A stretch of 64,000 nt of DNA from Sphaerolaimus hirsutus (Eukaryota > Nematoda > Chromadorea > Monhysterida > Sphaerolaimidae), in contig OZ038452.1 in NCBI GenBank assembly GCA_964036195.1, positions 23,695,785 to 23,759,784 of the forward strand. Direction: 5' to 3'. A program made the position numbers and the translations under genes. Of this stretch, positions 7,607-64,000 are shown one piece after another. The notes under the pieces are model-generated. The model ran no database searches and was not told where the DNA came from. It was given only the letters and a program-made list of their open reading frames with translations. Positions within the stretch are counted from its first letter, which is position 1. Each line of letters opens with the position of its first letter.

Positions 7607-10600
7607 TCACAAATTCGCACTGACAACTTTGTCATCGCGTAAAAAGTGCCAATTGTCGACATCGGGGGGCGGGGCGTGCGGAGGGGCCGGCTCAGCTGTG
7701 CTAGTCATGTGCGCCAAGGCGCTATTGGCGTCGATTTTCTTGGCGCTTGACTCCACGCTGGTGTTCTCGCTGAGAAAAAGGCGGAGTTTAAATATCGTAT
7801 CTCCTCGAAATACCCAAAGGGGGTTGATTATTTCGCCAGCAACTTTTGAGGGGGGTAATTTGAGGGATCAATCAATCAATCAATCATCAAACAACATGAT
7901 TTTAATAACCCAGCGAAAAACGAGAAATTATGCAGAAACCAACATGGCGAATTTAGTCTGATTTGCGTCACCGATTAAGCTCTGCCAGAAATCGTGCGTC
8001 TGTTCGATAATTTTGAGTGCATATTCCTGAAAAAATAGAAAGCTTGAAAATCAACAAAATTCTGAAAACGGTGATAACAAAAACAACGGTTAAACATACA
8101 GGGGTGGGCATCTTCAGTTACCGCTGGGAAAATGCGATAGATTGAGCTACGGTTGAGCTATCAGAATGAAATTTTAACACAATGGAGTAGACTCCATAGG
8201 ACACCTATTCTGAAGTTTGCAACCCAAACGGCCACATTTTGGGTGAGTTGTGGAACACACGGTTTTTAGTGTAATTTTGTGACTTGGCGTCACCCATAGG
8301 ATAAATCGAGGGTGGCATTTGAGGGGGGGGGGCATCGGTCGTTGGCGTCGTCCCATTCTGTCGTACATCGGCCGATTTTGATGCCCTTTGAGTATGTTGT
8401 GGTCGCGCCTACTACCAAATTCTTTTTTTACTCGAATAGTCCCCCAGTCCCGAGATAAGGGGGGTGAAGTCACAAAATTACACTAAAAACTGTGTGTTCC
8501 ACAACTCCTCCAAACTGTGGCCGTTTGGGTTGCAAACTTCAGCATAGGTGTCCTATGGAGTCTACTCTATTGTGTTAAAATTTCATTGTGATAGCTCAAC
8601 TATAGCTCAAGCTATCGCGTTTTTCCAGCGGTAACTGAAGATGCCCACCCCTGTACAAGCGTGAAACGTACCTGACTTTTGTACTGTCCATTGAAAGCAA
8701 ACTTATTGGGCACTTTGTCAGTACCAGTGGGTAGTTTGTAGTTGCGGAACCATTCGTGCGTCGCCTGCAAAAAACACGTTATTTGAAAACAAACGTTCAG
8801 CTTCCACGATTTTCGATCAAGCCAAACCTGCAATTCCAAAAATGTTTAAGTTGAAACCTTGACAAAATCACGTGTACACTTGACAATTTTTGCCGATTGG
8901 AATAAAACACACAAAAATGGTCACTCTAAAAATCGCAAAGGTGGCAATCGCAATTTTGCAGGGCATTTTACATGACTTTTGACACTTTGCAAAACATTTT
9001 ACATTTTACAGGGTCTGGGACTTCCCGGACCATCAAAATGTGGCTCAAACCAACGTAGGTAAATAAATCACTACACAAATAAAACCCTATCAAATTCAAA
9101 CCAACTCTGAGCAAGCCGGGCATATAAGTCTCCACATCGCTAATATCGTGCATCTTTTCCGCCAGTGGATCTCTGATATCGATGGCGATACATTTCCAAT
9201 CAGTTTCCCCCTCGTCGATTAGCGCCAACGTACCGAGCACCTTCACCTGGTCGATTGAGAAAAAAATTTGAATGGAATCGATTGAAAAGTCTATTGAATA
9301 GGCCAGAGAGTAGGGTTGGAAAAAATCGATTAAAAACCATTTTTAAACGGGTTTAAAATCAAAATCCCCGATTTGATTACTAAAAGATTTCTATTAAAAC
9401 TAGCTCTCCAACCATAGCAGATGGTTCACAAATATGACAATGGCGTGTCGACAACTCTTGAAAATAAGGTTGAAACGACAGGACTTTTTAATAGCAATAA
9501 ACGCTGGCTATTCAATACGCCGAAACTCCCCACGTGCCTTTGAGGGGGTTGTGCAGTCATTGTCTAGTTTACATTTAATTTATACATTTTTGGAACTTAT
9601 GGAAAAAATTGACATTTTACTTTTCAGTCTACTATATAAATAGAACCGCAAAAATTGCTTCCCCATATATTTGGACTTGTTATGTAGGCACAGTAGCTAT
9701 CTGTGTCGATTTTCCCATCATGCTTACCGTTTGGCTCCGAGTATAATTCCCGGGGCACTATACAAATTTGGAGGCTTTTTAAAAACATTTTCCAAGTGCT
9801 GTGCATAGTGCCCGGGCACTGTGCCATTCACCTAACGCCGCCGTCTATGCATGATTGTATAGTGACAGTACGATCAAACCGACAGGTTCGACCAGACGCA
9901 CGCCGCAACGCGCCACTTCTATTTAGTTTCTTTCATCTTTATACAACAGGCGCCGGGCAAGAGAAAATTTGCGTGAGAGACTTAAGTAATCCACAATGTT
10001 TGCCAAATATTTTTCTGTGCATTGCATAGTGCCCGGGCACTAGGCATGGAACTTTTTGCAATGTATAGGTCCCCGGGCACTATGATCGGGGGGAATTATA
10101 CTCGGAGCCATACGGTAGTCATGCTGACTAACTTGCTAACTTCCAATACTACATCAATAGTTTGCACTTAATTGGTCCTATATAAAGCGGACCCAATTCT
10201 AAAAACCTCAAAAACTTTGACCAAACAAACGCACTGGGTAAACCTCCCCCCTGAGGGCTACTCTGGTCCCAATTTCACATATATCAATAGGGTCCTTGTC
10301 CCCAGCCGCTTGGGTATCACTATCCACGTGGGCGGGATCCTCCCATGTCTGTAAATTTTTTATAGTTGATTTAATTTTCGATCGATCGATAATTAACTTA
10401 TGAAATATTTCATATTAATCCAAATAAATAGTAAAAAAATTTAGAATGTTGAATTTTTGTAACAAAAAATGATAAAACTCGAACGAGAGGTGAAAGTATG
10501 TTTTAAAGAAACCTGTGGCAAGGCGCCGTAATTCCAAATGTAGCCCTTGTGCGGAAAAATGTTGTGCACGAAACGGGTTTTGCCCTTTTTCAAGTCCTGT

Positions 10601-17354: not shown

Positions 17355-20300
17355 TCAGTGATGGAAGAGTCTGATGCCGGTGTGCACCAGGACAAGCTTG
17401 TGCTCGTTGCACGCGCGCACGATGCTGTCGTCGTTGGCGCTGCCCCCAGGCGACGCGATGCACGACACGCCAAACTGGAATGGGTGCAGGGGGTGTGGTT
17501 TGTTTTTGAAGTGAGGGCACCCAGGTGCCAGTCCCAAGTCCTGTAAAGTAAAGTGTAGCACCTGCTAGTACCCGGAAACCTTTGGCGTCATTTCACCAGG
17601 TAAATACTTCTATCCCCATCACTAACAATCTATCAATAATCAATCCACGAATTAAATATCAGCCCATAATTATCACGAACACAACAGTATACTCGGCGTA
17701 CCGCAAAGTATGCGCAGAATCCTATGGGTTATGGTAGGTTTCCATACTAGTGTGATATCTGCTGTGCCAACCAAGTTACGTTGCAAGTAGGGCATTAAAA
17801 ATAATTTCATGGAAATCGAAAAACGGAAAGCTAAAAATTTTGTATGTGAAAACCGAAAACATAAAGTTGACATGAACACTAGACTCGAGTGCCTCACCTT
17901 GACAGCGCAGTCGATATTGTCTCGGAATGGGAAGAACGCGTCGGAGCTGAGTACCACCTCGTGCAGTTTGTGCAGCCAGTCGCGCTTTTCCGCCTGTGAC
18001 GAAACGAAATTTCTTGAAAATCGTGACATCGTCCAACTAGGTTAGCATCAACTTTCCACCCCAGTATACCCACCCCACTGACCAGACTCAACTTCTCCAC
18101 CGACTGCACAAAGACCCCCTCAGCCAACTGCGGCCCCTGGTCATCCTGCTCCACCTGCTCGGACAGGAGCGCGTCGATGGCGTTCGCCCTGTCGGCGCGC
18201 TTCACGCCGGACACGAACTGGGCGGACAACACGCGCGGGTGTTGACGGAACCACCTGGGGGGTGATTGGGGTGTTGGGGGGGGGGTTGGGTTGACGGTTG
18301 AGTTGACGGACTGTGCTATTTGGCTAGGTGGACTGCGGTTTGCGTTTGTTGTTAGATACTTTTGACGATTCTGTGCAACGAAGGAGTGGAGCTAGGACAT
18401 TTAGCTAGACAGGGTCGGGTTCGCGTTTATATCGAAAATTCGGCATTTTATTCTGACACATCGATCGAATATCATGCAACAAACTGTTGAATTATAAATT
18501 TTGCATCGAAATCGATAATTGTTTTCGAAAATATCGAATATCGATGTAGAAAAGTCACGACCGTGTTTAACAAAACAGAACAATTAATGTATGTTGCAAG
18601 CACTATACGCGGCACACGGCTTCGAACTTCCAAAACCAACAGTAGACAAAAACAGTATATTAATGTACACACGCCGACGTAGGCTCATCCCACATCTAAA
18701 CCCATTACACATCTAAATATACTTTGTCCCTCAAATAGACTGTATTTAATTAAGGGAATTTCAAAAAAGTCATGATGACACAAGGTAATAAATCTAATAT
18801 AACATGTTAGAGTGTTTGAAGGCAATTTGACAACACATGTGTTGACACATGACAGTTGACAACTATTGAGTGCAGTCAGTGTTATTGAGTACAACTTTGA
18901 CCTGCGAAATCACCGAGTCATTGAAAGTGGCTCTTATTGTAGCACTTTTTCATCATCAACATTTTTTTGCATCCATTATCCACCAAAAATGCAAGGTATA
19001 CGCATCAAATATGACAGGCATCCAATTTATGAACCGGGATATGGGATGCGTTTAGATGTGGGATGGCACAGAGCCCACACGCCTAGTGATGAAAAAGCGC
19101 CGTGGCGCTTTTCCAACTTAGAGCGTCAAGCGTCAATGGCGCCCAGCGCCAGGGACGTATCCAGGATTTTTGAGCGGGGGGGGGCGGCTTGTTTACGGAG
19201 GCTGGCGAACGGGGGGGGGGGGGCTCAGCCCCCCCCCCCCTAAAATTTTACCCACAGAATGGCGGAATGAGACCATGGCGCTGGCGCCATTAGTAGGCGC
19301 CACGACATGGCGCCATTGGCGCTGGCGCCATTAGTAAGCGCCACGCCATGGCGCCATTGGCGTTGGCGCCAGCGCCATGGAACGTTGTATATGTATGTGA
19401 ATACAAAAACAGCAAAAAGCACACCATTGAGTGTATTTATAACAATATAAGGCGACATGAAGCAAATCTGATGATAATACCTTATGTGGGGTAAAAAATG
19501 CGCGCTGGCGCGCAAATTTTTTTACGCTGACGTTGAAAAAATCGCATTTTCCGGTCACTTTTTGGTCTCGCCCCGGGAAGGGGAGGGGGCTGCAGCCCCC
19601 CCCCGCCCCCCCTGGATACGGCCCTGCCCAGCGCCATGGTGCTTTTAGCTCTTACTAGCGCCATGCGCTTTGTTTCTGGCGCCATACAATAATAGCGGCA
19701 AGCGCCAAAAGCGCCTTGGCGCTTTTACACGACTACAAACGCCACACACAGACGTGCCCCAGTGCGCGAACAGACAACAAACCATCTCTCTGGGGTGCGG
19801 AATGCCCAACAGCACCCGCGCAGGCCCAAACGACTTTGGCGATTTTTTTTGTTTTGTTTTTTGTTGCAATTTTTATAAAATACAAGCGGAAGATTGTGGA
19901 AGCGGGAATACTATCCTAGTAATTAGGGTGGTTTAGACTATGACATGTCCAGCGGACGTTTTTTTAGTTGTCTACTTAATATTAGTGATCACATACAATG
20001 TGTTAAGTGACCAAGGGGTCTTCAAACGGGACACTCATTTACCTATACCTATTTACGTATTTATACTCGGTATGTGCAGAATCCTATTTACCGGTACCAT
20101 AATTTAAAGAATAAAATCTTGTGATAAATTTCGCAATTAATTATCATCAAAAAACTGCATACTTTTTGGTTCATTATTCAGATGGGTTATGGTCTATTGG
20201 TCACTTTTTGGTTCATTATTCTATACTAAGTGTGATGTCTACCAAGTATATGCATAAGTACGCTTTTTGCGCATAAATATTTCTACAACCCGATAAAGCT

Positions 20301-23300
20301 TATTACCATAATCTACATAATTATACAAATGTATGACCATCGCCCAAACCACCCAAATCTACCGTAACCCACCAATTAGCGGCCTTGTTTCCCGCCAGTC
20401 TGGTGCAATGTATCCTACTCTGCTGCCCCGCCCCCACGCCAACAAGTTGTCCATTTTTCGCGTAGCACACCGAATTTGATTGCGTGTATTTGAGGGAAAT
20501 CGTCGCCACTACTAGGTCGCGGCGGTTTTCAGGTGAGAGCTGAAAATGTGAAATGTTATTTTTTGAGAAAATTTAATGGCTGTGCTGTTTAAAAAAGTGA
20601 GGTTTAATAAACAGTTAAAAATAAAAGTTATTTTAGAGAGCAGTTTGAACAAAAAAATTTGTTTAAAAAAATATCACAGCATTCCTTGCTATTCAATAAC
20701 TCAACAAATATTTTTTATGACCACAAAAGATATACCTAAATATCAGTGCACAAATTATCAATTATTTAACTGTCCTTCTATTTTTTTCGCCTACATCAGG
20801 TGACTTTGGACAATACACTTATGCAAATAGTTTATGCAGTTTTCAAATCGAAGAAAAACATGCCACCGGCTCACATTGGTATTATTACTGACAACATTGG
20901 TGAAAGACTCCTCTGTGATGCGCACGTCATTTCTGCGCTGTTTCAGTTTCATGCCGAATATCACGCGCTCCTCATCTGGGGGCGGGTCGAAATCGGGATC
21001 CATCTGAGATTTTTTTGCACTTTCGCAGATTGTTTTGATGATTTAATCGGGTCAGAGAAGGCTGTCAGAAAACCCTTACATCTATTTTAATTTTAAATTA
21101 TTTTTATTTTTATGACATATTTTGTATTGTGATTCTTTTACAAGAATTTAAAAAAGCATTGCTGTGCTGACCGTGGTGGTTTCATATAATGGAGAATACA
21201 GAGATTTGATATTTAGAATTTTTTTGCATATTCATCCATGATTATTTATCATGTTACTTAGATCATTTCATACAAAAAAGTTAATATACAATGTGTTTCA
21301 TAAATTCTTTGAAGGTTTATTGAGAATATTTATGTCAAAAGGTCAATTATGTTGTATTTAGGTTTATGAAGACAAAATTAGGCTCGTTCAATTCGCCATA
21401 ATTTTCTGGACAATTAAATATATATATTTACATAGTTTACTTGAAGTTTGAGAAAGTCAATTCCTATAAAATGTAAATGCTTAGTTGGCAGTATTTAGGT
21501 AAATACATTTTAGTTTACCGTTTGCCTCTGTTCAGAAGTATCATTAAGGTACAGCCCAGCGTGCAAGATATTTAGTCAAATTTGTCCCCTGTTCACATAA
21601 AGTATTTCACATATTTCATATATAGAATTTGACGCTGAATTCAATTATGGTATTCATTAAGTCCATTTAATTCATCTGACTATTTCATTACCTTATTATT
21701 TGATTACCATTAATTATATAATTACATTACATTACCCTTGATTAAGTCCCCACTTTTCCCAATCATCAATTCTACGTTACAGGAAGTGATTATTTGAGTT
21801 TTCCATATGTTTACCTTGCTCATATTATGTAGGATCATTTACACTGCTATTTGTAGTTTCCATTGCTACCAAATTAGTTTCCAATTTGCATCAACATCCA
21901 CTTTTGACTACTTGAATAGATTAGCAGAAAGTGCTAGTTTGCCGATTTCTTCACCCCACAAAATTTATGGTTTCCTCCATCCCAATTTGTACTTGGTATT
22001 TATGTACCGTAAATGTAGAAATGTGAGCGCCCTATGCAAGCCAGCTGTCTTAGTAAATCGTACCGCATTTCATTCATTATAATTGTAAGATTTCTGTCAA
22101 TAGTATTTATATTGATACAATTTTCCGTGTTTCTACAACTTTTGGACTTTTATTCACTCTCTAACTTTGATATTCTGACACTTCGAAATAACTAGATAGA
22201 ATTATCCCCACATCGGATACTGGGAATAGAAACTAAAGTAGAAAGCTTGCCTGAATCAACTGTGAAAATTCTGTATTATAATTGCGCTGTTTCTGATCGA
22301 CAATAAAGTACCTGAAACAACCTTGAAATCCCCTCTTTTCACACACCACTACAAAACTAATAAAATCGGCTGTCGACAAGTGAACGTTTTGGCTCCAACG
22401 GAAAATTCAACCACTACAAAGACCGTCGCTCATTACGGTCTTGAAGTTGCCAAAACCGGTGGCAAAGGTTGCTGAATGCGGTGGCTTCATCACAATTGCA
22501 ATGTAAGGGCGGGGAGCCACCGAATACCGCTTTTTTCTAGCCCCTGCTATTTTTTTAAAGTATTATTTTTACCTTCTAAAATCCGAAAAAAAATTCTAGG
22601 AAAACTCAATCAACTTCACTATCAATCTTTCCAAACCAAATCCCAGCCCAAACTCAATACCCACCCAACCCAAAAATCTCACCCTCAAAACGACATAATT
22701 GCGATTTTTCTTCTTGCACAAAACCTCGAGCGCCTTGTCGTCATAATCTGGCGCCACAATTCCGTCGGAAACTTCGCGCGCGATCAATCTGGTGCAAGTC
22801 CCGGACCCTGTAAAATGCCCTGTAAAATGTAAAATGTCACGCAAGTGTCAAAAGTCATGTAAAATGCCCTGCAAAATGGCAACCGACTTGTCATTTTGCA
22901 CAGCATTTTACATGACTTTTGACACTTTGCATGGCATTTGGCATTTTAGAGAGCATTTCACAGGGTTCGGGATTGCCACCTGGCCGTGGATTCGTCGCAG
23001 CGGTGAGAAAGGGCGATAAAATCACCGAAGGAAGACAGTCGGTCGGCTCCTGAAAGTATGAATGTTATTGAATTCTTGTTACACCGCAAATCGCCATATG
23101 ACATCATCGCAAGTGAATGAGTGACAAGGAAAGAGGTACGTGATAAGTATTGTGATTAATGGTAAGTCAAGTGCTTAGTGATAAAAAGCGACAAGTCAAT
23201 TCCAAGTGACAATCATTTTGATTTAGAAATTTACATGTCACCACTTGGTAACTTTACTTATTATTTACATGTTTGCCTTCACCATGAAGACTTTTCACAA

Positions 23301-24330
23301 CCCAAAAATACACGCACCTCTAGCCCTGGCATAGGCCACAGCCAAGGGGCTCAATTTGTCACCATCCAACAAATCTTCAACCAAATAAGCCTTGGCTTCA
23401 TCCACTGTCAGCGGCACGGAAATTGCCGCGCCGGCGGGCGACACGTGTTTGAATGAAGCCGCCGCTGGCACGTTGCCAAAGGCGGTGCTCAGCTCCTTCA
23501 CCAGCTGCCACCCGTTCAGGGCGTCCAGCTGGGGGTTTTTTTGGGGGTGGGAATTTTTGGAAGAAATTTTCTGATCGATTTTCCGTTTGAATTGTACCGT
23601 TTCAAGTAGTAATTGTATGAATATAACTAGGAATTTAATTAATTGAGCAATGGAGCCGATATGTAATAATTATTAGTGAAAATCTTGAGAAGATAATTTC
23701 ATTCTAATACACACTATATACCATTCACACTCGCTGCAAGTGGATGTAGTCGTTTTCTCCACCCGGAAAACAGGGGGTTATTTCTCAAGGGAAGTAAATA
23801 TCCAAAAATTTACGGCCGGACAATCCTCCATCTTTTAATCTAGGTTTCCACTTTACAAACACGAAATCCACTCACCAAATTAATGTAACCCGGACTTCCA
23901 TTCTTTATTTCCACGGGTATATCAGTCCCGGGCACGTTGGCCTGCACGCTGGCGGGCTTCTGGGGGCAGTCCCAGACCCTGTGAAATGCCTTGGAAAATG
24001 TCAAATGTCATGCAAAGTGTCAAAAGTCATGTAAAATGGCCAGACAAATGTCGTACAAAGTGTTAAAAGTCATGTGAAATTTTCTGCAAAATGGAAACCG
24101 AGTTTGACACGTGCATGACACTTGACATTTTGCAGGGCATTTTACATAACTTTTGACACTTTGCATGACACTTGACATTTCACATGGCATTTTACAGGTT
24201 CCGGGAGTGGCACCTGGTGCGGGTTGGTGCCGTATCGCAGATCCACGTGGCGCTTGTGCGGCTCCGGCGCCAGCTTAGAGCGCATCCATTCGGATATCGA
24301 CCCGTCGTACGTGGCTGTTTTTTCAAGTGC
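17355..24330 (-). CDS. ATIC: ATIC exons 6-15: AICAR transformylase domain
   Basis: Codes for residues 183-608. Landmarks: RYGTNPHQ (end of exon 6), [33 protein letters not shown] with the catalytic Lys-His pair, [58 protein letters not shown] with the conserved Asn, [28 protein letters not shown] and the C-terminal RLFHH that shapes the active site in the human enzyme. All catalytic residues I can place are intact. Exon 7 joins [12 protein letters not shown] to NPHQ across an introner, and exon 10 joins [11 protein letters not shown] to DEST across another. Introns 10 (21004-22682) and 12 (18255-20372) hold repeats and AT-rich DNA only. Confidence 0.96.
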
Positions 24331-27300
24331 CTGGGTTTAAAAAAAATTGTGTTTTTTAGAATTGTAGGTTAAATTGATGGGAAGAGATTTTTGTGAAAAA
24401 TAATGGATAGGGTGAAATGATAGGTACAAGGTGAAGCATGTTTAGGAAGTGTCAAGTAATAATCACGCTACAATGTGGCACGAAAATAAAATTTATAATG
24501 GAAAGCTATAAATTTCGGTAGGAAGCACATCTACAATTGAGGAGACACCGAATTTATTTATCAATTACAAATACAAACAAAAGAAACCAGTGTCACACTA
24601 CAAAACATCCAACAGAATAATCACAAAAAAATAAGACTAGTTAAATAACAAAACAAAAAACAAATAAATTTATAGACAACAGTGATATCCAAAGCTTGGT
24701 CCTCTTCAGTTATTCGTGATAATTATGTTTGGTATTCACGGTTATCGAGTAAAAAATCGGCCGGCCATCTATTTCTCCAATAAATCTAGAGCTGTATTTA
24801 CAGTATCGTATGTGGCGACTGGTGAATAGGGATGACCGGTGTTTTATCAACGCTTTTTTGTTTCAAAAACGTTGTTTAAAAAAACGCAGGTACCGAAACG
24901 TTTTTTAATAAAAAAATCGCATTCAATTTTTTTCAAAAAATTAACCTTTAAAACTAAAACTTAATTTTTCAAATTAGTGCCGCTTCTAATCACATAACAA
25001 AGAGGTACATAATGACATGAGGCGCCTACTTCTAAAGTCGATAAGTCCAAAAATCGATTTTGAGAAAATTGCATTTTAAGTTTTTCAACTAACGTTCTCT
25101 GCAATGTCAAATAGGGCTGCTCACTGATATTCCAAATGCGTCAACACTTTTTCATTAAGTGTCAAATTTTCTGCCCCTTTTCTCAATACACAATACTCAA
25201 TACAGGTTGTAAACTAACTAAGTTTCATTTTTTTGCGATCTCATAAAAATATAAAATGAAACTTACCTTCTTAGTTTAGTACAACCTATCATAGTTGTTA
25301 AAACGTCTTTACGTTTACTCGATAAATACGTATACTCGTGTGCTGTGTACACGTACTGCGTTATAACGTATTTACATTTACATTTCCTCCCAAAAAAATA
25401 CTGGTACTCACATACTCGCGTACTGGGACAGAAAATGTCATTTCAAACAGAACAAACAGGACATTTTCATAAGAAGTACTTAATAAGGAGAGAAAACCCA
25501 TCTTTGATGTATTTCAGAGTAAAAATTGAAAAAAGCCAATGTTTACATTATTTTTGTGAGAAAAATACTCACTTTTACGTTTTCTGTGAGAAAAAATACC
25601 CATTTTTACATTTTCCCTGGAAAAAAGTATTTTCATCAAGTTTAATGCAATGTAAAAATAAAATACTTTACGTTTTCTGTACTCAGGTGTGAGTAAACTA
25701 AAAATACTTTATGTTTACGTTTACTTTTTAAAAAGTTCAGTACTTTTAACAACTCTGCAACCTATTAAATGAGAGCAGTGGCTTTTCGGAAAATCGCACT
25801 TAGTTGAGTACAAAAACATACCAAGAAGAAGTGGATTTATAGTCTTCTTGCTGGCAACAACCAGATTTGCTGTATGGGCAGTTGATGAACTTATAAACTT
25901 TTAGAAATAAGTGTTCAAAATAAACTTTTCTGGCTTGATATGTTCAAACAAAATCGCAAGTGACATCAGAATAAATGGAAAATGGTGATAAATGGGTGGG
26001 ACAAACTCTAAATAGCATTTCTGGGATTAACGCAATTTTTTGGAATTTTGGACGTATCGACCGACCTTTAGAAGTAGACGCCTCAAACATATTTCCATGA
26101 TAGCTTCGCGATAAATATTTACCTGTTGTTCCGACGCCAACCGAAGTCGCTCCCTGGACTTTGAACAGCGCATTAATGGACTTTTGAGCATTTGAGAGTT
26201 GCTCCGATCTTTGTTCGATATAAGTCTATGCAAATTCGCACTACTCGCCGATCGTCTAGTGCCTTTGCGCCCTTTATTGGAGCCATTAGAGCATGTAGGC
26301 GACAGATTTTTGTCGGCCGACATTTTTGAGATTTTTTTAAAATCAAGGCAAAAATGGATTTATCGATAACGGAAATTTTGCAGTGGGGGTGCAAAGTCAG
26401 ACACAAGAATACAGAATATTTATCTGTGCTGTAGCAGTGTCTTTCATTATATAGCGTGGATTAAATAAGTATATATTATAGCGGCATTCTCACAGACATA
26501 AGCCCTTATTTATTGGTCAAAAAGCTATCAAGCTATTTGGTCTGCTCACGCTGTTAAAGGTGAATATTATGCAAAATTCTATAAATGGAACTATTCTTGT
26601 GGTGAATACAAATGAGCATTTGTTAGGGTGGTGGATATAACATAGATGGGTTAATTTTGTGAGGTGTTCATTTTAAGCAACCCTTCAAAATATTGTAAGA
26701 GTTTATGCACAAATAGCATCCACGCAAACTGAATTTTTATGTACAAACTCTGAGTAGTTGACACTGGAATTATTTAAAAATATTAAGCTACAGATAAGTG
26801 CAAAAGGTTGATTACTTAAAGTTGTTCAATAAAAAACACCTGAAAGCAAAAGTGGGTGTTGTACGCTTTTGTGTTAATACCACTGTAACGTTTGGACTAC
26901 TTCAAAAATACACTGAATGTAAAGGTTGATCTGTTTGAAAACTTATGCACAAATCAACCTAAATTTTCTCACAACACACCTTTAACTGAAAACGCATTCA
27001 AGACACAATTGGATGACTCAATTCTCAAATCATATGACCCGGCCCTAATGTAAAATAATACCACGCTGCAGCAATATTCGCTGCGAACAGGCTAATGAAC
27101 CAAAGTCAGGATGCAGTTTCAAAGCTTGTCAAAAAACAGGATAGTAGTTCACCGTGACCGATGTGAAAACTGAAATGGCGACATGGCGACATCCAGCCTA
27201 CTCTTTTTGTATGCAATATGTGTTTTAGTTTTAAAAATTTTAAATTTCAACTTTCATTAATTTAAATTCCAATTAAAATTAAATAAAATCATTCAACCGT

Positions 27301-30300
27301 GTTCATTAATTTGCATTTGAAAAAATTCCAGTTTTCACACGAAGTCACGATGAAAACTAGTGTGTGTAGGCACTATAAACTACGTTACAAATTGCATTGG
27401 AGGCTCAACCAAAAATTGCAACATCTGATTCTGACGGTTCCTGTTAGATTTGGCGGCAGACCCGAAAAGGATACCCGACATTTTTTTGCCACGAAAGCTG
27501 ATACCCAAAAAGAAATTTTATCTACCCAAATAGGCATCTACATCGCTTTAGAAAAACAGGAGATTTCTCAACTAGGGACGGCCTGAGTTTATTTTCAAAG
27601 GTTTTTAAACGCTTTTTTCCAACGCGAGCATAGAAGCCGTTTTTAAAAAACACAGCCAAATTTCCCTATTCCCAACCGCATAGTGATTGGTTGGTTGCAA
27701 TCTTAGGCGGAAATGTCATGTGCAATTTGTCAAGTTTATTGACCTGTCACTTGACGATATTTGGAATTGGTCCCGGTTCATAACTCCTACGAAATGAGAT
27801 TGGCGCACCGCACACTGCCATTGCACGTTCAGCGTTCGAACGTTTTTTGCCATCAGCTGAACTAAAAACGCGGAACCACCAAAAGCGCTGAACTCCAGAT
27901 CGTCCGGACGATTGAAAATTGGGTGGTTTGTCAATTCAGCGAGTGAAAAATTCGGATGATTTGGCACGCTGAAATGATTTTGTACGCTGAACTGCGACGA
28001 ATATACCTAGTGTAGAACGAATTTTTGGTTGATTGGTGTCACTAGTGATGTAAAAGCGCCATGGCGCTTGGTTCTATTTTGCTGTGGCGCCATGCGCTTG
28101 CCGCCATGCCCATGAAAAGCGTGTGTGTTTAATGTGTTATTCTAATGCATGCATCAAAACTAGGGTTGGCCGATGTTTTTTTAACGTTTAAATTATTAAA
28201 AAAACATTGTTTTAATAATAAAAACCCATTGTTTTTTTTTAAACACGAGGTCCAAAACGTTTTTAAAAAAAACACCGGCCGAAATACTAAGCACTAGGTA
28301 TTTTGCAAATTTTTTGCGCCCAGCACGCAATTTCACGCACAAATTGACATTGGTGGTTGTTTTCATTGGTTTTGTGGCATTTTTAGTATCAAAGCATCCA
28401 TTTCTATGTGCTACCATTGGTAAACAAGCCGTCATATTGCTGCTGCTGTAGTATATAGTATTCAGGTAATGTGCTTCCATGTACCTCCACAGTGTGTAAC
28501 ATCACTCCTAAAGTAATAACATCCCTTTTATAACCTTGTTTGATCACTATTCCGTGCCAAACTTCACTTAAAGTCACAAACATTTGACTATAAGGCGATA
28601 TACGAACATGTCAAAAAGAATGGACATGTTTGACACAAATCACCACTTATAATGCTATCCCATGGCTCCGCAGCCATTATATGGTCATATGTAACACCAC
28701 AGAGTATTGTCACTTGTCTGATATACTTACATATATTGATTGTATTGTCCAGGGCCATATCTGGGAGCTTTTAAAAAAACGTTAAAATTTTAAAAATAAC
28801 ATGGCGTAAAATAGACTTTTTCCAACCCTAATCAAAACTGTTTGTTTTTTAAACTAGTTAAATTTTTTAGTACTTATGGGCTAGGTATTTTGCACAATTT
28901 CACACAATTTCACATGCAAGTTGCCATTGTTGGTTGTTTTAATTGGTTTTGTGGTATTTTGTGGTTTAGGGTCACGGCTATGACTACCGTATTACCTCGA
29001 ATTATCCCCCCCTTGAATTACCCCCCCCCCCTCGAAATACCCCCCCTAAAATTCGGCAGAGGAAATAATAACCCCCCCCCCCTCGAAATACCCCCCCTAA
29101 AATTGAGTGTAAAGGGAACGTACATGACAAATACCGCAGTTTGTTATCTGTACAATGCAGAACACACGTTAAAACTGATGATTGAGTGATGTTAGGGTAG
29201 GGTTTATGTGTATAAACAGTTATATATGCCTATAACCACATATCTATCTATGTAATTGTTTGATTTTTCTATGTCTGAGTATGGGGAATTTCCGAAAATT
29301 TCTGGCGAAATAATAGACCCCCCCTCGAATAAACCCCCCCCTCCTCGAATTATCCCCCCCTAAAATTTTGCTGGCGAAATAATAAACCCCCTGGGGGTAT
29401 TTCGAGGTAATACGGTAAATATTTTTGTTTGCTCGAATAATCCACCAGTCTAGAGATAAAGGAGTTTATAAAAAGGTTGTCATTTTGCACAGCCGATCTG
29501 CACATTGAATTTGAAACTTAATAACTCGCCCATTTCTGGGCCAATTCAGACCATTCAACCTTTTAAAATGATCGTGACAACCTGCAGATTCAATGATTGG
29601 GGTCAGATTAGTAATGTCTAAATTTGGTGTTTCAACACGAAATTTTATTCTGAACATGTGAACATACACCTTAGACAAAAAGAAATGATCTGGCCAAAAA
29701 ATTATTACAGTGTCCCTACAATCAAAAGCTATAGCACTTGAAACTTTTGCCTCCCAACCGTAACATAACCGCATGCAGAACAGTGCATTGAGCCTAGGGT
29801 GTCAAAATTTTTTTTTTACGGAAACGGAAAATTTTTTTCAGTGGCCGGAAAACGGAACTGAAAACGGTATTTGCACTTGACGGAAAACGGAACGGAAAAT
29901 GTAAAAAAATTGCCTGCGGAAAACGGAAACGGAAAACGGAAATTTGACACCCTAATTGAGCCCATGCATGCTAGTTGACATCCACACTTTATGTCAACTG
30001 GTTCCCGACCCAATTCAAAGCTTTTGCATTTGAACGTCATTCGTTTGCCTGTCAGCAAACTTTGAATAGGGATGGGAACCAGTTGACATTTGGTGTCGAT
30101 GTCAACTAGCGTGTGGCACCATAAAATTGATCAGAACATGAAAATGAAATCTCCAGGTGATTCTGATCATTTAAAGTTTTCATTTGTGAAAATAGGCTCA
30201 GAAATGGCTGAAATATGCAGCTTTGAATTTGCATGCATTGTTCTTCATACGGTTATTTATATTTTTGGTTTGGAGGCAGAATCTTAAAGTGCTGTAACTT

Positions 30301-31421
30301 TCGACTGGAAATAGATATTTAAATTATTATTAGGCCGTGTTTACACGGATTTCGTGTGACGACAAAAAATTTGTGTCGTCACGGACATTTTTCGATGAAA
30401 ATTGAAAAAAAATTCAGATTTTTATGAGTGTGACGACATTTCGGCCTCGATAACTCCGACAAGCAAAAATATTGAAATCGGCCTCGACGAAATCCGACAA
30501 ACGCAGTTTGGCTACGACAAAGGTTAGACTGGCTACGACAAATGTGAATTTTTGAATTTTTTGTTCGCACCCTTAGGGAGGACTACAAACGCTGCCTAAT
30601 AGATAAAAAAATGTACCATACATATTTCTATTTCTTCTAATAGAACGGCACCGGTAATAGAATGGCAGGTCACGAAAACAATACCACGGCATCCTCCAAT
30701 AGAACGGCAGGTAGAAATGACGTTGGGCGAGGCCAAACATAAATATTTTAAAAATAGGTGGTAAGAACATCAATAGCTTTCACAACTATGATTCAGGGGT
30801 TGTTTTCACATTTGGTGTTGTTTGAATTGATCCTTTGATATTGAAATATTCCTTGTGTTTGATTAAAAATACTGTTCAAATAGAAAATGTGAGAAAAATA
30901 TCAGTGACAAAATAGAACGGCAGCCTCTAATAGAGCGGCAATGGCACCTCCAATCAGGGGTGTCTTATCAGGGGTATCTTGAATTTTGACCCTCCCTCCG
31001 AGTGGTTGGATAGATAGCAAATCGCTCCTCTGGAGGGATAGATAGCTGAAAAATTTTCTGGGGGGGGGTTGGTGGGGTTGTGGTGGTTCAATATATAGGC
31101 TTTTTCGGGGCATAAAAGAAGAAAAGGGTGAAAAATTGCTAAAAGTAGGTGTAAAATGGCTCAAAATGGGTATACAAGAGCATGTTATAGCACTAAATAT
31201 AGCTGAAAATAGGCAAATAGGAACCAGAACTATGATTTTGGAAGTGAAAATCTTTAAAGAGGTATAAAAATAGCGATTTTGAGCGAAAATTGGGATATAG
31301 TTGCTCAAAAATCGCTCCGGTTAGGTAGATAGCTGGCCGATTTGGGGGGGGGGTTCAGGGGGTAGTAGCCAAAAAATTTTTGCCTCCGGGATAGATAGAT
31401 AGATAGCTGAGCAGTCTCCAG

Positions 31422-31470
<49 letters not shown>

Positions 31471-34400
31471 CTGGGCGGTTTGGGGGGGTAACCCTCCCCC
31501 ACCCCCCCCCCCCCCCCCATCCAAGACCCCTGATCACATATCCTAGAATTTACCCCTCCCTCCCTTGAATAACTCTCCCCTGTTGAACACATGGGGAATG
31601 CATAGCGAAGTTGTTATTTCCAAAATGGGGGAGTGCAAAGCAAACTTGTTATTTACAAAATGAACAATTTTTTTGGAAACCTCCCAAATGAATGTCAACT
31701 ACCACTTAGAATAGTGCGAACTCGTTGACAAAATAGCAGCCACCTCTCACTGGTAGAGAAATGCGGTAACAAACCAGTACCATATTTCTTCTAATAGAAT
31801 GGCACACCTCCAATAGAATGGCAGAATCTCCAATAGAACAGCAGGTTTTGGTCTGTTTTTCTGCTTACGAAAACAATAGAATGGCATCTCAAATAGAATG
31901 GCAGGTAGAAATTATGTTGGGAGTAGGGTTCGAACGGGATTGACTTTTCGAGATTGGGATTCACTTTTTGAGATTTCAGGATCGGGATTGGGGTGGGGTT
32001 TCAGGATCAGGATTGGTTTTTTGAGATTTTGGTATCCGGATCGGGATCGGGAACGTAATAAGTTGACATAGAACGGATATTTTTGACAGAAATCACCACT
32101 TATAATGCTATCCAATGACTCTACAGCCATTCTATGGCTATGTATAACATAACAAAGTACTGTCATCTTTCTTATTTACCTGTATATGTTGACTCATGAC
32201 CATATCTGGGAGTTTTGAAAAAAACGGGTTTTATTTTTTTTTAACCTTGCCTTGAAAAAAAACCTTTTTCAGCCATCCCTCGGCAGTGCACACTTATTAT
32301 GCTTTCTGTGATAATAAATATAAGTACTGTACAGAGCTTAGGAAAAGCTTGAAAGTCAGTTATTTTTAAGTTTGAAAGTAATTAAATTGTTATAAACACC
32401 TTCCCGGTCACGTCCGGCACCCAATTTTTGGTTTCATTTGTGGCATCCTATCTCCAGTCATAGGGCGCGCCAGAAGCTGAAACTTGGGGGAGATACTGGC
32501 GCAACCTCCCCTATACTTTGCATGAATTGGGGGGGGGGGTCGCGGCGACCCCTTTACAGGGTGTCACCATAAGTGCAAAAAATTTATTGGCTTTTCTGGT
32601 GTCCCGCACAGGTGCGACACCCACTGATTTCTGAGCTGTGGGAGGGGTATAAATCTTCAATTTTGGGGATGTGTTGGCAACACCCCTCCCCTACTCACAC
32701 TATGCAATAATGTGGGATTAATGTGGAAAAATTTCTAAAATATCCTTTGAGTCTCTAAAAAAACACGATCCCCCAATAGATGGATGACAAATAATTATCT
32801 TTTCAGAACTTTTTTATTAGACACTTGAAGAGCTGGTTTACGATACTTTATAAGGGGACAGTTTGATGGTTAAAGTTATGTTAAGAACCATACCTCTAAA
32901 ATGCCTGCATTGCAAAATTTACTTGGGGGAATTTTACGACACCATATTGACATCATTTCAGGAACAAAAAATTACAAAATTTATACTTTGAAATTCCCCC
33001 CAAATAAATTTTGCAATGCAGGCGTTTTAAAGGTGTCATTCTTCACATGACTTGAATCATCAAACCCCTCACTTAAAAGTATTGTAAACCAGCTCTTCAT
33101 GTGTCTAATAAAAAAGTTCCAAAAAGTGAATTATTTTGTCATCCATCTATTATTTGGTTGTCGTGTTTTTTAGAGAATAAAAGAATATTTTAGAAATTTT
33201 TCACATTAATCCCACATTATTAAATAGTGTATAATAGGGGAGGGTTGTTGCCAACACATCCCCAAAATTTTAGATTTATACCCCTCCCACAGCTCAGAAA
33301 TCAGTGGGTGCCGGACCTGTGCGGGACGCCAGAAAAGCCAATAAATTTTTGGCACTTATGGCAATGCACCCTCTAAAGGGTTGCCACAACCCCCCCCCCC
33401 AATTCATGCAAAGTAGAGGGGGGTTGCGTCAATATTTCCCCCAAGTTTCAGCTTCTGGCGCACCATATAACTGGAGATAAGATGTCACAAGTGTCATCAA
33501 AAATAGGGTGCCGGACGTGACTGGGAAGGTGTTTATTTGTGGTGTGAATTACATTTCATCGACCATTTGCAATCTTGTTTGCAGAAATTGTGTGTTCTTG
33601 CTCAGAACACAACATTGATCATATTGGAAGTGTAAAGTTGGCAGACGTATCGCCCTACAAACATTTGCGTCAATCTCTCCAGTGGAGAGTGCATGACAGC
33701 ATTAGGAATTGTGACGCAATATTTTAACCATTGGAATAGATCGGGTCACGTATGAAAACTTGGCCCTTATCCCAGTTACCAGTTGCGTATTATACAAATG
33801 AGAGTGAAAACTGAAAGTTAGCTAAAAATCGTGAAATTTGCTTCACTTTGCCAATTTCCACCTTCATAATCGCTATTTTTGTTTATATACATGGTTATAT
33901 AGCTATTGTGAGCCTTTTTTATTCATATTAATAGCGGATTTCGAAATTTTGGCCTGCTGCCAAGTTCTCTTCTGTTGGAACTGAGCCAACGAATGAAAAA
34001 TAAAATAAAAACAAAAACGGTAGTTTGAATGGTAAAACGGTAGTTTGAACGGTCAAATTCTTTACGAGCAACGTTGAAAATTTAGATAACTAGGGCGTGG
34101 CACGCACAGACGCAGCGAAACGTCCATTTTTCTTTTAATATAATTTTCTTTTTCAATTTCTAGCGTCCGCGTGGGACACAAGTGCTCTATTCACGAGCGA
34201 ATTCTAACTCTCCGATTTTGTAGGGTGAAATGTCTTTACATTACTGTGAACTTTACTCTGTGGTGAGTAAAATAAAAATACTTTACATTTACATATACTT
34301 TTGAAAAAGTTCAGTAATTCTCACAACTCTGGTATTATACACTAACATAGCACTACACTAACATAGCACAGCTTGTTATGACACGGCTTATTCTTATTAT

Positions 34401-37400
34401 AGCATGAACAAATAATGAAAGCTTTCACAATGAAGAGTGAAATGTCCGCCGACTTTACATGTATGCATTGGCATAAATGTTAGATGTGAAAACAAGCAAT
34501 ATCTGGGAGCTTTTGAAAAAAAACAGGTTTTATTTTCAAATAAAACCCTTTTTTTGAAAAAAAAACGGGTTTTGTTTTTTAAACCTTGCGTTGAAGAAAA
34601 AAACCTTTTTCAGCCATCCCTAGTGTAGACTCATAACCATATGTGGGAGCTTTAAAAAAAACATTTTACTTAAAAAAAAATGTTGTTGTTTTTAAACGTT
34701 GTTTTTTTAACAGTTGTTAAAAAAATGTTTGCCATCCCTATCTCAGAGGCAAAATTTTATTTATCTTTGCTTCCCCAAAGTTGTCTAGCTATCCACCTAT
34801 CTGTCTGTAGCGATTTTTAAGACATTCTGCCCCAATTTTCGCTTAAAATAGCAACCCCCCAACCTGCCTAAAAATGTTTTTGGCTATCTATCGCTCGGAG
34901 GAGTGATCTACTATCTATATGAACCGCGTGTGGGGTACAAATCTAAAAACCATGTATCTATCTACCATATTTCCTCGAAATACCCCCCTCAAATCGACAC
35001 TATGAAATAATTACCCACCCCCTCGAAATTCCCCCCTCATTGTATGTAAAGGGAACATACATGACTAAAGCTGCGGTTTGTGATACAGGCAATGCAGAAC
35101 AGATGTTAAAAAGAACTATTGTGTTACATTAGAACCTTTTTATACCATCTACATACTGATGTAAGTGTATAGACTCTATTTCATCGTGTTTATTGGTGTA
35201 TTTTTCGACATCTGCGTATACCAAATTTGTACCGGGGTTTCAAAAAATTTCTGGCAAAATAATAAGCCCCCCCCTCGAAATACCCCCCCCCGTTTAACCC
35301 CCCCCCTCAAAATTCTCACTCTGAAACGATCACCCCCAGGGGGTATTTCGAGGAAATACTGTATCTATCTATCTATCTATCCCAGAGGCTGCTCAGCTGT
35401 CTAGCTATCTATCCCAGAGGCACTGGAACTTTTGGGCTACTATCCCCTAACCCCCCCCCCAAATTGCCCAGCTATCTATCTATCTGGCACAATTTTTGAG
35501 AAACTATACCCCAATTTTCATTCAAAATTGCTATTTTTCATACCTCTATATAGATTTTCACCTCCAAAATCACTAGTTCATGTGTATAACTGCCTGCGTG
35601 ACATGCGGAAAATGTTCAACATGCGGGATGGGTTTACATGTGGAATAGTGCAGTGCCCCGTTCGCCAGCCTCCATATACAATCCGCCCCCTGTCAAAAAT
35701 ACTGGCTACACCAGTGCCCTGACACTCCCTCTGAAGTAGCAATTTGCTGTGAATGGAACCCTGAAATCTGGCTACCACTGATGGGCGGCAATATATTTCA
35801 CAGCATATCTTGATTCTAATGCCTATTTTGATAGTATTTAGTATGGATGATCAAAATCAAATCTTCAGGTTTTTCTGATCATTTTAAGTGTTGATTGAGG
35901 AAAATCGGCCAAGAAATCTCGATAAATTGATGATCAAAATCAAATCTTCAGGTTTTTCTGATCACTTTATGTGTTCATTGAGGAAAATCGACCAAGAAAT
36001 GTTCAAGCTATGGACTTAAACAGTAGCGTGCATCTGGCTTCATGCGTCAAACAGTATTTATGTGGATGGGAGGGAAAAGTTTTAAGTGCAATAACTTTTG
36101 ATTGGAAAAAGATATTGAACTCATTCTTTTGGTATACGACTTCTCACAGTCTCAAGCATACGATAGCATGTTCAGAAAAATTTAATTTTCATGTTTTAAA
36201 ACTGGGTCAAATCGGCATAAGAAATATAGACATCACTAACGCGACCCACAAAATGGAATCTACAGCTTATGCTGATCATTTTAAGTGTTCAACGGTCTAA
36301 ATCGGCCCAGAAATGGCCAAGTTACTGCGCTCCCAAGTCAATCAGCCTGATCGGCCATGCAAAATGACCATGTTTTGATAGACCACCCTTATCTCGGGAC
36401 TGGGGGATTATTTGAGGAAAAAAATTTTTTGTCGTAGCCCCGCCCCCAAACCCCAATATACTCGAACGGCATCAAAAACGGCCAATGTACAATGGAATGG
36501 GACGAGACCAAAGTCTGGAGACCCCCCCCCCCCTAAAATGCCACCCTCGTTTTATTCTATGGATCGGCAGCCCCGGTTTGCATGAAATTTATCATGCTTT
36601 TGTTTTCAAGTGCATTTTTTTCGTTTTTGGGATTTTTTTGTTGATTTTTTCAATTTTTTTCTTTTTGTCGGAGTACTCAAAATTAGCCTCGCTAGCGAGG
36701 CCTCCGACATTTTCTCATTTTTTTTTGGAAATTTTTCAAAAATGTGACGACAAAATGTCATCACGAGCTGTGAACGTGTTTTTTTTGTGACGACTCAGTG
36801 ACGTCTCATTTTTGTTTACTTGGTCGAATCGCTCTCCCCACCACCCGCAATTCAGAGTCCAAAGAAGTCCAAAATGGCCTGCTTGATTGCCGGAAATGCT
36901 GCTCATGCATCTGAAAACAGGCAGATTTCTTCGGGAAGCTGAACGGTCCTGCGGTGATCTGCAATTTGGCGAATTCTGTTGCCAAGGTTGTGGAGGGCCA
37001 TGAAATGATGATGGGCAATGTCGAGCGAGTACCCCCGGCAGTACCGCGGATCAGCCAGTATCCCGAAGACGAGTGTGATGACTGCAGTGGCATGCCAGAA
37101 TACTTGCTGTTCCATCTGCAAATGTTTGCAGATGTGTACCCGCCCATGACCAACACTCAGCTGCGCCAGATGTGCAAAGGCATGTTGACAACCATCCATA
37201 CTACCAAAGCATGCTGTCGGCATTTGATGACGACAATGCAGTTGATGACGATGTGGTCATTGTTCTTTCCTCAGATGAGACGGTTTGTTGATATTTTTTG
37301 TATGTGTTGTATGCGTATATGGATTGAAAAACTGTTTGTAATGACCCAGTTTTTTTAAAATAAAACATTTTCTTAAAGTGGTTGCTTTTTAAAAAAGCAC

Positions 37401-40400
37401 TGGTGATGCAATATGCAAATCACTATTTGCATATAATTCATTATTTTCGAGCAGGTGCCCACAAGGTCTTTGAGCAATCACAGCCGACCCACCAACCCTG
37501 TTGTCAGCCGAAATGTGGGCGCGCGCGAAAATCTGGAAAATATTGATGTGCCGGTGGTGGACACTGACAACATGCTGTGTGTGCCATCGCAGCGTTCTAG
37601 ACTGGCGCCTTCCACAGATCATCAGGTAGTTGATGATTTGAGCGGGCGGGGTGGGGGGGGGGGGTGTCGGTGCACAAGTAAACCTGGTGCACAAGTAAAC
37701 CCAGTGCACAAGTAGCAAAAGTAGGAGAGGGGCGCCATGGTGTGGTTTACTTTAGCACCCTCAAATGGTGCCATACCATCACAAATGATGTGTATATGGT
37801 TTTTTTCAAGCTTTAGAAGAAAAAAAGGGGGAAAATCACTAGAAACATATGTAGATAGCTTGATCATTTGGCGGGTAATCCAACCCCCCTCCAACCCCTA
37901 TACTGACCCCTGCAGTGCCCACAAAGAACCAGTGCTCAATATGGGGGCCTGGCACCTAAGCACCGTGTCTACATTGGCACTGGACACATTGTTACTTGTG
38001 CACCGGGTTTACTTTAGGGTTCAAATGATATCCCGATCCCAAATCCCGAGAAATTTCGGGATTTTGTGGTCCCGATCCCGAAACCTCAATCCCAATCCCA
38101 AAGTTTGAAAAAGCCAATCCCGATCCTGATCCACGAAACCTCAATCCCAATCCCGATCCTGAAATTTCAAAAACCAATCCCGATCCCGAAAAGTCAATCC
38201 CGGGGGGTTGGTTAGATAACGAATCTCTCCTCCGGAGGGGTAGATAGCTGGAAAATGTTCTTTGGGGGGGGGTCATGGGGGTTATGTATTTTTGTGAGAA
38301 AGTTATATTAAATGATTATCTCTCATTTTGGTGCCCAAATGTTGCCTCCGGGATAGATTGATTGAATGATTGATAGATGGATTGATTGATTGATTTATAG
38401 CTGGGCAGTTTTGGGGGGTGTAACACCCCCTGAACCCCCACCCCCTGTTCAAGACCCCTGGACTGTGCACCGTATTATCCAAGATTAGGATTGGCACTTG
38501 ATTTTTAAACTCATTTCTTTCAAAAAATTTATTTATTTTTGTAATCAAGCCATTTAATCAATCAATCAATCAATCAAACTGATTTTTTTCAACCCCTATG
38601 TTTAGCCAGTATGTACCGTATTTCCTCAAAATACCCCCCTTGAAATACCCCTCTCAAAATGGGCACTATGTATTTGTGGTCTGGGAAATGCATAACAGAC
38701 ATTCAAAACACTTACTGTGTTACGTTAGAACATCGTTTATACCATCTACATCCTTATATAAGGCTGTAAAAACTTATAAATGGTGGTTATTGTTGCATTT
38801 TTTACGTTTTTCTCTCAGAATTTCCACTCTGAAAAAATAAACCCCCTGGGGGTATTTCAAGTAAATACAGTAACCTCATGCAATTCAAACATTTAACAGT
38901 ACAACAAGAACAACAAAAAGAACACTGCATACACATAATGTACCGTATTACTCTGAAATACCCCCATGGGGGTTTATTATTTCGCCAGCAAAATTTGAGG
39001 GGGGTTAATTTGAGGGGGGTTTATTCGAGGGGGGGTTTTATCATTTCGCCAGAAAATTTCGTGGAATTCATAGTAAAGAATATGCTATTTCTTACACAAA
39101 AATGGTAATAAATGTGAGAATATAGGTTCTATTGGGGCTATAGATGAACATCTGTACACAAATGAGCATATAAGAGTAGCTGCGATGCAAATAAGTAGTA
39201 ATAAATACATCATGTACATTGCATACATGATGTACATCATTCCGGAGGGGGGTATTTCAAGAGGGGATAATTCGAGGGGGGATAATTCAAGGGGGGATAA
39301 TTCGAGGTAATACGGTATCTGCTATTGCTGCTGTATGGCAATATTCTTAAGTATTTTTGTATGGTATTGTTTTCAGCCAGAGGGGGTGTTGTTCAAGAGG
39401 GGGGAGTTATTCAAGGGGGGGTTAATTTTTCCTCACCTCACCAACAGGGGTGAGTTATTCAAGGGGGGGTCTTATTTGAGGATCTGTGGTATGTATCTAC
39501 CTCTGATAGATTTCGCTTGCTTATCTGAAACAATGTCGTCACATATTACAAATAAAATGAAAATTGTTGTCACAAAAAAAACACGTTCACAGCTCGTGAC
39601 GAATATCAGCCACTTTTATGTGTCACTAAATTAAGTGCGTGACGATCACGGAGGATTAAGTTGCTGTCGTCACACTGTCGCAGCGTGAAAAATCAAGTTT
39701 TTTCAGATTTGTCGGAAAGCTGTCGGAAGGCCCGGTGGAATAAAAAAAATTCAACGGTCCATAACTATTTATTGACTAAGCCAATTGAACTGAAATTACA
39801 CACACACATATACACCTTAGTATGATATATACTCGACCATTTTTACTCGTGAATATGGAACTTTATTCTGGAGTTATGGAACTTTAAAAAAATACTTTGT
39901 CGTAGCCATGAAATCCGTGTAAACGCCGCCTAACGATTTCAAAAACCCGGTCAACTCGACATACGGAGGAATTTAGACATCACTAATCCGACCACAAAAA
40001 TTGAATCTGCATATTGTCCTGATCATTTTCAATGTTGAACAATCCAAATCGACACAGAAATGGCTGAGTTATTAAGCTTCAAAGCCAATGTGCAGATTGG
40101 CCATGCAAAATGACCACCTTTTTAGACCCCCGTTATCTTGGGATTGGGGGATTATTTGAGCGAGCAAAAAAACATTTCATCATATCCCAGACCCCAAACT
40201 CACAAAATACTCGAACAGCATCCAAATCGGCCAATTCCGTTTAAACCCTACCGCTTGCTGAACCAAACCGTCCGGACGTTTTTACATTTGCTTACCGTTC
40301 ATGTTGCTCATAGGTACATATTACACGCGGAAATACCCAAATTCAAAAAACCTCAAAAACGCAAAAACTAAAAAATAAATGATTTTCAGAAAAACTTCCC

Positions 40401-52924: not shown

Positions 52925-53012
52925 GTAGGCCCCGTAAAATGTAAAATGTAAAATGTCATGCAAAGTGTCTAAAGTCTTGTAAAATTGCGAGAAAATGGCA
53001 AACTACGTTTGA
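52925..53012. repeat. Partial introner-family copy
   Basis: Contains gccccgtaaaatgtaaaatg then catgcaaagtgtctaaagtc and gaaaatggcaa, the left half of the family only. Non-coding location. Confidence 0.6.
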
Positions 53013-53108: not shown

Positions 53109-53307
53109 CAGGGGGCAGTTCCGTGAAGTGTAAAGTGTCAAATGTCATGTAAAATGTCGATAAAAAAAGAGTTTAGGTATTACTGAATTTTGCATGACAA
53201 TTGATACTTTACTTTCAATTTGTCATGTCAAATGACACTTTGCATGACATTTTACATGACATGTGACACTTTACTTTACACTTTACAGGGTCTGGTATTG
53301 GCACCAG
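53109..53307 (-). mobile_element. Introner-family element outside coding sequence
   Basis: CAG|GGGGCAGTTCC at the left and GGTATTGGCAC|CAG at the right, so the CAG trinucleotide is duplicated. The core is 193 bp. It sits within gcgcc-type repeat DNA (aaggcgccaag before, ccatggcgccataagg after) rather than between recognised exons, about 1.9 kb upstream of the ATIC start. Confidence 0.85.
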
Positions 53308-63545: not shown

Positions 63546-63660
63546 CGTGCCAATTCCAGACCCTGTAAAAATCTCTGTAAAATGTCAAATGTCGTGGAAA
63601 ATGCCCTGCAAAATGGCAACCGAGTTGAAATTTTACAGGGCTTTTCGCATGGTCTGGGAG
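63546..63660 (+). repeat. Short degenerate introner-family copy
   Basis: Left end tgccaattccagaccctg and right end catggtctgggagtgcgcac. About 115 bp, missing the central units. No exon recognised beside it. Confidence 0.65.
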
Positions 63661-64000
63661 TGCGCACTGGATGCTTGTGAATCGGTCGTTGTGAAGAGAT
63701 CTCCACACACTTCACAAGTTTTGAGGTGAAGTGTCTTCCACACACATCATCTATCATCACGCAAAGACGCGACAAGCAAAGTTCGTGAATCGCACTTCAC
63801 AAACCATTACGGCATACCTAATTACTCTGCATGTTTCGTGAAGCGCCGTGAAGCGTTTGGAGGCGCAGTGAAGTGTCTTCACGCTGTCAATGCGCGTCTG
63901 CGTGAAGGCACAATACTGTCCTTACCGGGCATCTCTCACCCATTTTCTCGCTGTGTTAGGGTGGGAACAGTGAATGTCGACGTTTTTGCGTCAATGTTCT

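Follow-up and report, generated by a model that had tools for sequence, protein, structure and literature searches.

A palindromic CWG-targeting transposon family as a probable source of introns in a likely nematode or close kin

Introduction

In a 64-kb stretch of DNA (the window), two introns of the ATIC (purH) gene each consist of one inverted-repeat element and one copy of its 3-bp CAG target, with zero other bases. It belongs to a high-copy family of palindromic MITEs. We consider it very probable that this family are introners, in the form of non-autonomous DNA transposons of palindromic sequence whose insertion at CWG duplicates the target. The sequences point to what is probably a real introner family in a nematode or close kin. 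The origin of introns is a long-standing question for which clear animal cases are few. By its own account, the survey of Gozashti et al. (2022; PMC9860276) records introners from two animal groups only, and its main text contains neither the word “nematode” nor the word “Harbinger.” Likewise, a nematode-wide study, as far as its text was available, reports few intron gains in Caenorhabditis and source sequences that were not found (PMC9169325). A search of literature titles and abstracts for introners in nematodes or copepods, and for Harbinger elements with CWG, a coverage outside which most subscription papers fall, found no such family.

Two introns of ATIC

Fourteen exons of ATIC could be placed on the minus strand (table 1), the first exon of the gene not being found. 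When joined, they give an open frame of 596 codons, and GT-AG termini are present in 13 of the 13 introns. The predicted protein is 51–60% identical (mostly 56–60%) to the 120 homologues listed, and it aligns end to end with a solved ATIC structure (PDB 1g8m), ungapped at both element junctions. The first-pass annotation had held that each of the two introns spans the element from its first base to the last base of the duplicated target, and that the joined exons match ATIC on both sides; rebuilding the gene from sequence led us to the same structure. Its intron numbers, 6 and 9, hold if one exon upstream of 50865 is missing; in the 14-exon model the introns are the 5th (element 2) and the 8th (element 1) of 13. 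Among the 120 matches listed for each of ATIC and PPA1 there were no transcripts of this species.

Aligned over 188 bases, the two elements show 86–89% identity whichever orientation is used, since both are palindromes, and their CTG flanks on the plus strand are CAG on the coding minus strand. Removal of the element and one CAG restores the two protein junctions of table 1 without gain or loss of a residue. The element supplies the GT and the duplicated target the AG, as had been proposed, and this arrangement, CWG target included, is seen both in the window and in copies fetched from the genome. The sequence thus supports an introner-type intron gain in ATIC as it was originally read; the qualifier “recent” draws only on the identity of elements and targets, aligned copies being 4–13% diverged from the consensus. 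Older introns into which a MITE inserted, or whose interior it replaced, would be a scarcely credible source: a PPA1 intron does hold a decayed copy that lies short of its boundaries, but both ATIC introns are without a single base outside the element and its target, and exact in-frame joins are repeated in unrelated genes.

Table 1. Positions in the window of the ATIC gene, its two element-derived introns, and other copies of the element
Feature	Position	Strand	Details
ATIC gene span	50865..17355	-	14 exons placed
ATIC exon	50865-50739	-	
ATIC exon	49663-49487	-	
ATIC exon	48774-48714	-	
ATIC exon	48571-48416	-	
ATIC exon	24330-24214	-	
ATIC exon	23959-23876	-	
ATIC exon	23528-23318	-	
ATIC exon	23049-22980	-	
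ATIC exon	22788-22683	-	
ATIC exon	21003-20875	-	
ATIC exon	20539-20373	-	
ATIC exon	18254-18083	-	
ATIC exon	17993-17898	-	
ATIC exon	17474-17355	-	
Intron with element 1	22789..22979	-	191 nt, phase 2, join TA-R-LIARE
Element 1	22792-22979		188 bp
CAG copies of element 1	22789-22791; 22980-22982		intron end; exon side
Intron with element 2	23960..24213	-	254 nt, phase 0, join NPHQ-KPAS
Element 2	23963-24213		251 bp
CAG copies of element 2	23960-23962; 24214-24216		intron end; exon side
Element copy	63042..63229	+	within coding exon of ANF-receptor-domain gene; sense target CTG, GT-first; exact removal keeps frame
Element copy	55116..55307	+	target CAG on +; GC-rich exon-like stretch; sense strand uncertain
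Element copy	53112..53304	-	full-length, more diverged; target CAG on +; intergenic or in ATIC intron 1
Element copy	63547..63666	+	shortened; downstream of ANF-receptor exon, probably in following intron
Element copy	8950..9027	-	decayed; inside PPA1 intron, away from intron boundaries
Element remnant	52940..53001	+	
Element end	17525..17550	+	one decayed end, in last ATIC intron

The family in the window and the genome

With at most 3 mismatches allowed, the window has 8 occurrences of the 20-base terminal motif, whereas none of 100 shuffles has any. One further copy lies in a coding exon of a gene whose ANF-receptor domain is matched at E 2.3e-16 when two upstream exons are included; the match of the 69-residue join alone is weak (E 0.0037, below the cut-off; 0.64 against PDB). 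A 17-bp direct repeat, ATGACTTTGAGCTACCC, at 62317-62333 and 62948-62964 encloses about 630 bp between two exons of this gene, the second of which has no obvious acceptor. If the copy at 55116-55307 is read on the minus strand, it interrupts what may be the signal peptide (MNCLRALY-LACLCLPAF...) of a cysteine-rich protein without a Pfam match.

The window also contains repeats of other kinds. Another intron of PPA1 (inorganic pyrophosphatase; 12033-7600, minus strand) than the one with the decayed copy holds an element with 189-bp inverted ends (8097-8655); long palindromes, 84–95% self-complementary, lie at 32392-33536, 44774-45329, and 51525-52028; and GGGGGGTATTTCGAG-like units form a further family at 53597-53991, 57386-57820, 28984-29424, and 61321-61634.

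With two element copies as queries, a search of the 348-Mb assembly that contains the window yielded 3386 and 2246 candidates at first look, and 40 from each set were scored; sequence around 39 + 39 genomic places was fetched. The consensus is a 189-bp palindrome with ends GTGCC and GGGGC and target CWG. By a strict test, identical CWGs stand on both sides of 29 of 59 copies, 8 have unlike CWGs and 22 neither, the chance of a matching flanking CWG being 0.0004 per copy. Exact element patterns had 0 matches in viral_contigs and genome_contigs.

Copies frequently lie in GC-rich, exon-like surroundings (71 of the 90 examined), mean GC being 62% in the 60 bases on each side versus 43% at 400–560 bases away. 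Flank GC reaches 0.5 at 24% of 2000 random CWG sites, against 91% for the 43 core copies and 72% for the 39 copies of a second batch. Because copies were sampled by their resemblance to two that lie in exon-like places, exons may hold a smaller share of the family as a whole.

Host genes, orientation, and reading frame

The joined flanks of 38 copies, chosen by eye as 40 segments, were scanned against Pfam; 11 exceeded the cut-off and 29 did not. The domains recognized were animal peroxidase, ankyrin, Kir channel, nematode cuticle collagen, 7TM receptor (two copies), innexin, EF-hand, LIM, E1 dehydrogenase, and Es2, with ASC and a third 7TM copy (GPCR L011:2810) below the cut-off; in LIM L077 and GPCR L011:4899 the junction falls outside the matched domain. 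Junctions are ungapped against solved structures for the Kir channel (Kir2.2), peroxidase, a GPCR (a galanin receptor), and a BCKDHA-like protein. A DAGL-like gene (L035) and a receptor (L028) were recognized by eye and not confirmed by PDB and Pfam. In-frame joins are found in ATIC (both introns), peroxidase, ankyrin, cuticle collagen, innexin, EF-hand, Kir, GPCR, BCKDHA-like, Es2, and ANF receptor. Similarity reaches both splice boundaries in several unrelated genes, gene structure being drawn from homology, and these same sequences carry mobile-element signatures (TSD and/or TIR).

Homology gives the sense strand of 16 copies in 13 host genes, and 15 of the 16 are GT- or GC-first; they end in CAG (11), CTG (4: ANF receptor, Kir, GPCR, and Es2), or CGG (1). 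The sole exception in orientation, the BCKDHA-like copy L059:399-590, is GG-first with a CAG target and exactly in frame, and from its sequence would need either a GG donor or a lengthening of the exon by 18 nt, in frame. As a more general test of sense, a GC3 contrast failed on the known ATIC copies, and a codon model trained on ATIC and 15 homology-called joins was therefore adopted. In leave-one-out trials it called 14 of 15 strands correctly, missing the ASC copy L045. It gave confident calls for 44 of 91 copies, 40 of them GT/GC-first and 4 GG-first; outside the training set the figure is 28 of 31 (from rounded scores, with 45 confident copies). Besides L059 the GG-first calls are L028:6854, L034, and L082, the first contradicted by its gene context as read by eye. 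The 40 GT/GC-first copies end in CAG (24), CTG (13), CGG (2), or CCG (1).

This orientation bias bears on whether the spliceosome is involved at all. Excision from the DNA, or spliceosome-free removal from RNA in the manner of ciliate IESs or euglenid nonconventional introns, could draw on a long hairpin that joins the ends, on the variability of the last dinucleotide, and on euglenozoan precedent (PMC12621601, as far as its text was available). We judge it very improbable, however, since a GT-first bias is what spliceosomal sites would be expected to produce, and so is the drift of the last triplet toward CAG that the counts below suggest. In euglenids and diplonemids, too, base-pairing is described as uniting intron ends with variable termini (PMC12621601; PMC4770533, in the parts available); unlike those introns, which have no 5′ GT requirement, the copies here strongly prefer GT, end mostly in CAG, and occur in an animal.

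Copies that end in CTG

The CWG target that the first-pass annotation had named is borne out; what it had overlooked is that CTG-target copies too lie in frame in conserved genes. Judged from sequence, about one-third of exonic copies seem to need CTG rather than CAG as the 3′ splice site. The two ATIC introns are GT...AG, whereas CTG-target copies lack a terminal AG and have an internal one (ACAG) in the hairpin, 19 nt upstream of the CTG end.

Splicing of GT-CTG copies at this internal ACAG, with the extra 18–19 nt tolerated, is conceivable for the ANF-receptor copy, in which a one-base deletion reduces the residue to 18 nt, in frame. As a general explanation it appears unlikely: in the GPCR, Es2, and GPCR-CGG copies the 19 nt left would be out of frame, and there is no in-frame AG within 60 nt of the exact end. 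When GT-first is treated as sense, the frame survives exact removal in all 12 AG-ended and all 10 non-AG-ended copies above the thresholds (5 and 3 of which, respectively, were in the codon-model training). This indicates that 19-nt retention is not the constrained product but not that splicing occurs, because a sequence inserted into an exon has in-frame flanks from the outset. The opposite, GG-first sense leaves 3 copies, 2 in frame, too few to serve as a control.

By themselves, in-frame flanks would also fit a recent insertion that is not spliced. The copies with CTG, CGG, and CCG ends might be unspliced harmful insertions or dead alleles, only the CAG copies being introns. This reading is a serious one, if on the doubtful side, and it finds a footing in human genes, where every TG 3′ splice site described is an alternative to an AG close by and none stands by itself (PMC2374985, within the text available). 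Yet non-AG-ended copies, CTG-ended ones included, match CAG-ended copies in their divergence from the consensus (6.9%, n = 22, vs. 7.4%, n = 41; p = 0.65), and the same holds among confident calls (CTG-ended 6.9%, n = 13, vs. CAG-ended 7.7%, n = 24; p = 0.92). What appears to be a single GPCR gene carries three copies, with ends CGG, CTG, and CAG, and its 7TM exons remain recognizable; the ungapped Kir and GPCR joins likewise speak against dead copies.

Comparison of the two target copies gives a hint of what may happen to CTG ends. Among GC-rich copies, an exonic CTG/TTG is accompanied by an intron-end CTG in 20 cases and CAG in 9 (3 other ends dropped), and an exonic CAG by CAG in 32 and CTG in 2 (2 others dropped); L033, L035, L039, L014, L017, L044, L058, and L073 are among those with exonic CTG/TTG and intronic CAG. 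The pairing of exonic CTG/TTG with intron-end CAG is thus commoner than its reverse (9/29 vs. 2/34, Fisher p = 0.017), in a count where GT-first is assumed to be sense, an assumption that fails for L059 at the least. The excess is fragile, with p = 0.065 without two TTG/CAG copies, 0.062 on the 41 confident GT/GC-first copies, and 0.009 without the GG-first L059, L034, and L082; because p varies in this way across subsets (0.009–0.065), the sequences suggest but do not prove selection toward AG at the 3′ end.

Discussion

The transposon type can be approached through the target. A 5′-CWG-3′ TSD defines the NuwaI group (PHIS/Harbinger) of animal genomes, as described in the available part of PMC4482050. 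The element here shares with it a 3-bp CWG duplication, an animal host, and one GGG-like end (GGGGC); in contrast to the NuwaI TIRs of 12–61 bp reported there, usually beginning with GGG, it is palindromic throughout and its other end is GTGCC. At least 163 genome matches to DDE_Tnp_4, the PIF/Harbinger-type transposase, were found with 150 of 306 candidates scored (e.g., L088 1441-2340), and dozens with the same score and span suggest a recent transposase burst. An autonomous partner with matching ends, which for this group would carry DDE and Myb/SANT genes, was not found, the one 4-kb DDE_Tnp_4 stretch that was read being without element-like ends. By analogy there is a fair case that the element works like a PHIS MITE, presumably mobilized by a PHIS-type (NuwaI-like) transposase.

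How such an insertion might become an intron can be envisaged as follows. Where the sense strand reads the element from its GTGCC end, the upstream copy of CWG would be left in the exon, the element's first bases would provide GT, and the downstream CWG would become the final three bases of the intron. The predicted hairpin (mean energy −141 kcal/mol) is nearly perfect, and it would pair decoy sites, GTAAAA near +18 and TTTTACAG at −16 and −28, while the terminal GU and CNG would stay more open and close together. Mean unpaired probabilities (n = 66) are 0.36 for the real GU versus 0.03 for the decoy GU near +18, and 0.44 for the real 3′ end versus 0.08 for the upstream decoy AG. We propose that, because the hairpin masks the decoys and brings the open ends together, the spliceosome would take out exactly the element and one target copy and leave the protein unchanged. 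From sequence we infer such splicing at AG and non-AG ends alike. A CAG target would yield an ordinary GT-AG intron, as in ATIC; a CTG target would most likely be tolerated by using the ACAG 19 nt upstream for step one and choosing TG in step two, and its final CTG may later tend to change to CAG.

In the full scenario, insertions of a hairpin MITE would have given an animal genome many GT-TG introns. Any CWG target in sense would yield a removable intron whose terminal CNG (CAG, CTG, even CGG or CCG) is the only productive 3′ site, the fold hiding internal AGs and selection later turning CTG into CAG. This scenario is put forward tentatively, and we would put it at slightly under an even chance. 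It has partial parallels. In the available part of PMC9860276 introners are likewise DNA-transposon-like, with TSD and TIR, element ends that are intron ends, and a bias to GC-rich genic sequence; those of its figure 2C also carry the 5′ site and co-opt the 3′ site from the TSD, there without TIRs, and TG-ended introners, the counterpart of the CTG-ended copies here, receive no mention in its section 4. Human U2 TG sites are reported in PMC2374985, as far as its text was available, as rare and alternative, and only with an AG within 28 nt. Both systems thus combine a TG end with a nearby AG, but the human TG is there always an alternative, whereas many introns here would have no other productive 3′ site.

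That the host is a poorly sampled nematode or close kin is held with moderate confidence; a larvacean origin finds no support in its sequences. The PPA1 tree groups the window sequence with environmental sequences and then with nematodes, and a nematode cuticle-collagen N-domain is among the host genes of the element. ATIC joins the nematode Aphelenchoides in a grouping that is undermined by the long branches of both lineages. Among the COX1 matches listed, the closest are 90% and 81% identical (Logan contigs) and the rest at most 74%, the named ones being insects, a crustacean, and a priapulid at 67–71%; COX1 thus lends Nematoda no support.

Introners as such are already known; what is new is the host group, the CWG palindromic element, and the CTG-ended copies. 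Fritillaria borealis, also an animal, reportedly has transposon-derived non-canonical introns and tolerant splicing, in another phylum and with terminal dinucleotides other than those of the element here. A single genome now offers thousands of candidate matches with known target, orientation, and divergence, whose joins can be checked by protein homology. The conserved Kir channel, GPCR, and Es2 genes, which seem to require splicing precisely at CTG, provide a sharp test of the AG rule. Copies with an exonic CTG and an intronic CAG may show a poor splice site turning into a good one, and, if the proposed scenario is true, the family would present a visible series from the non-canonical newborn intron to the canonical intron.
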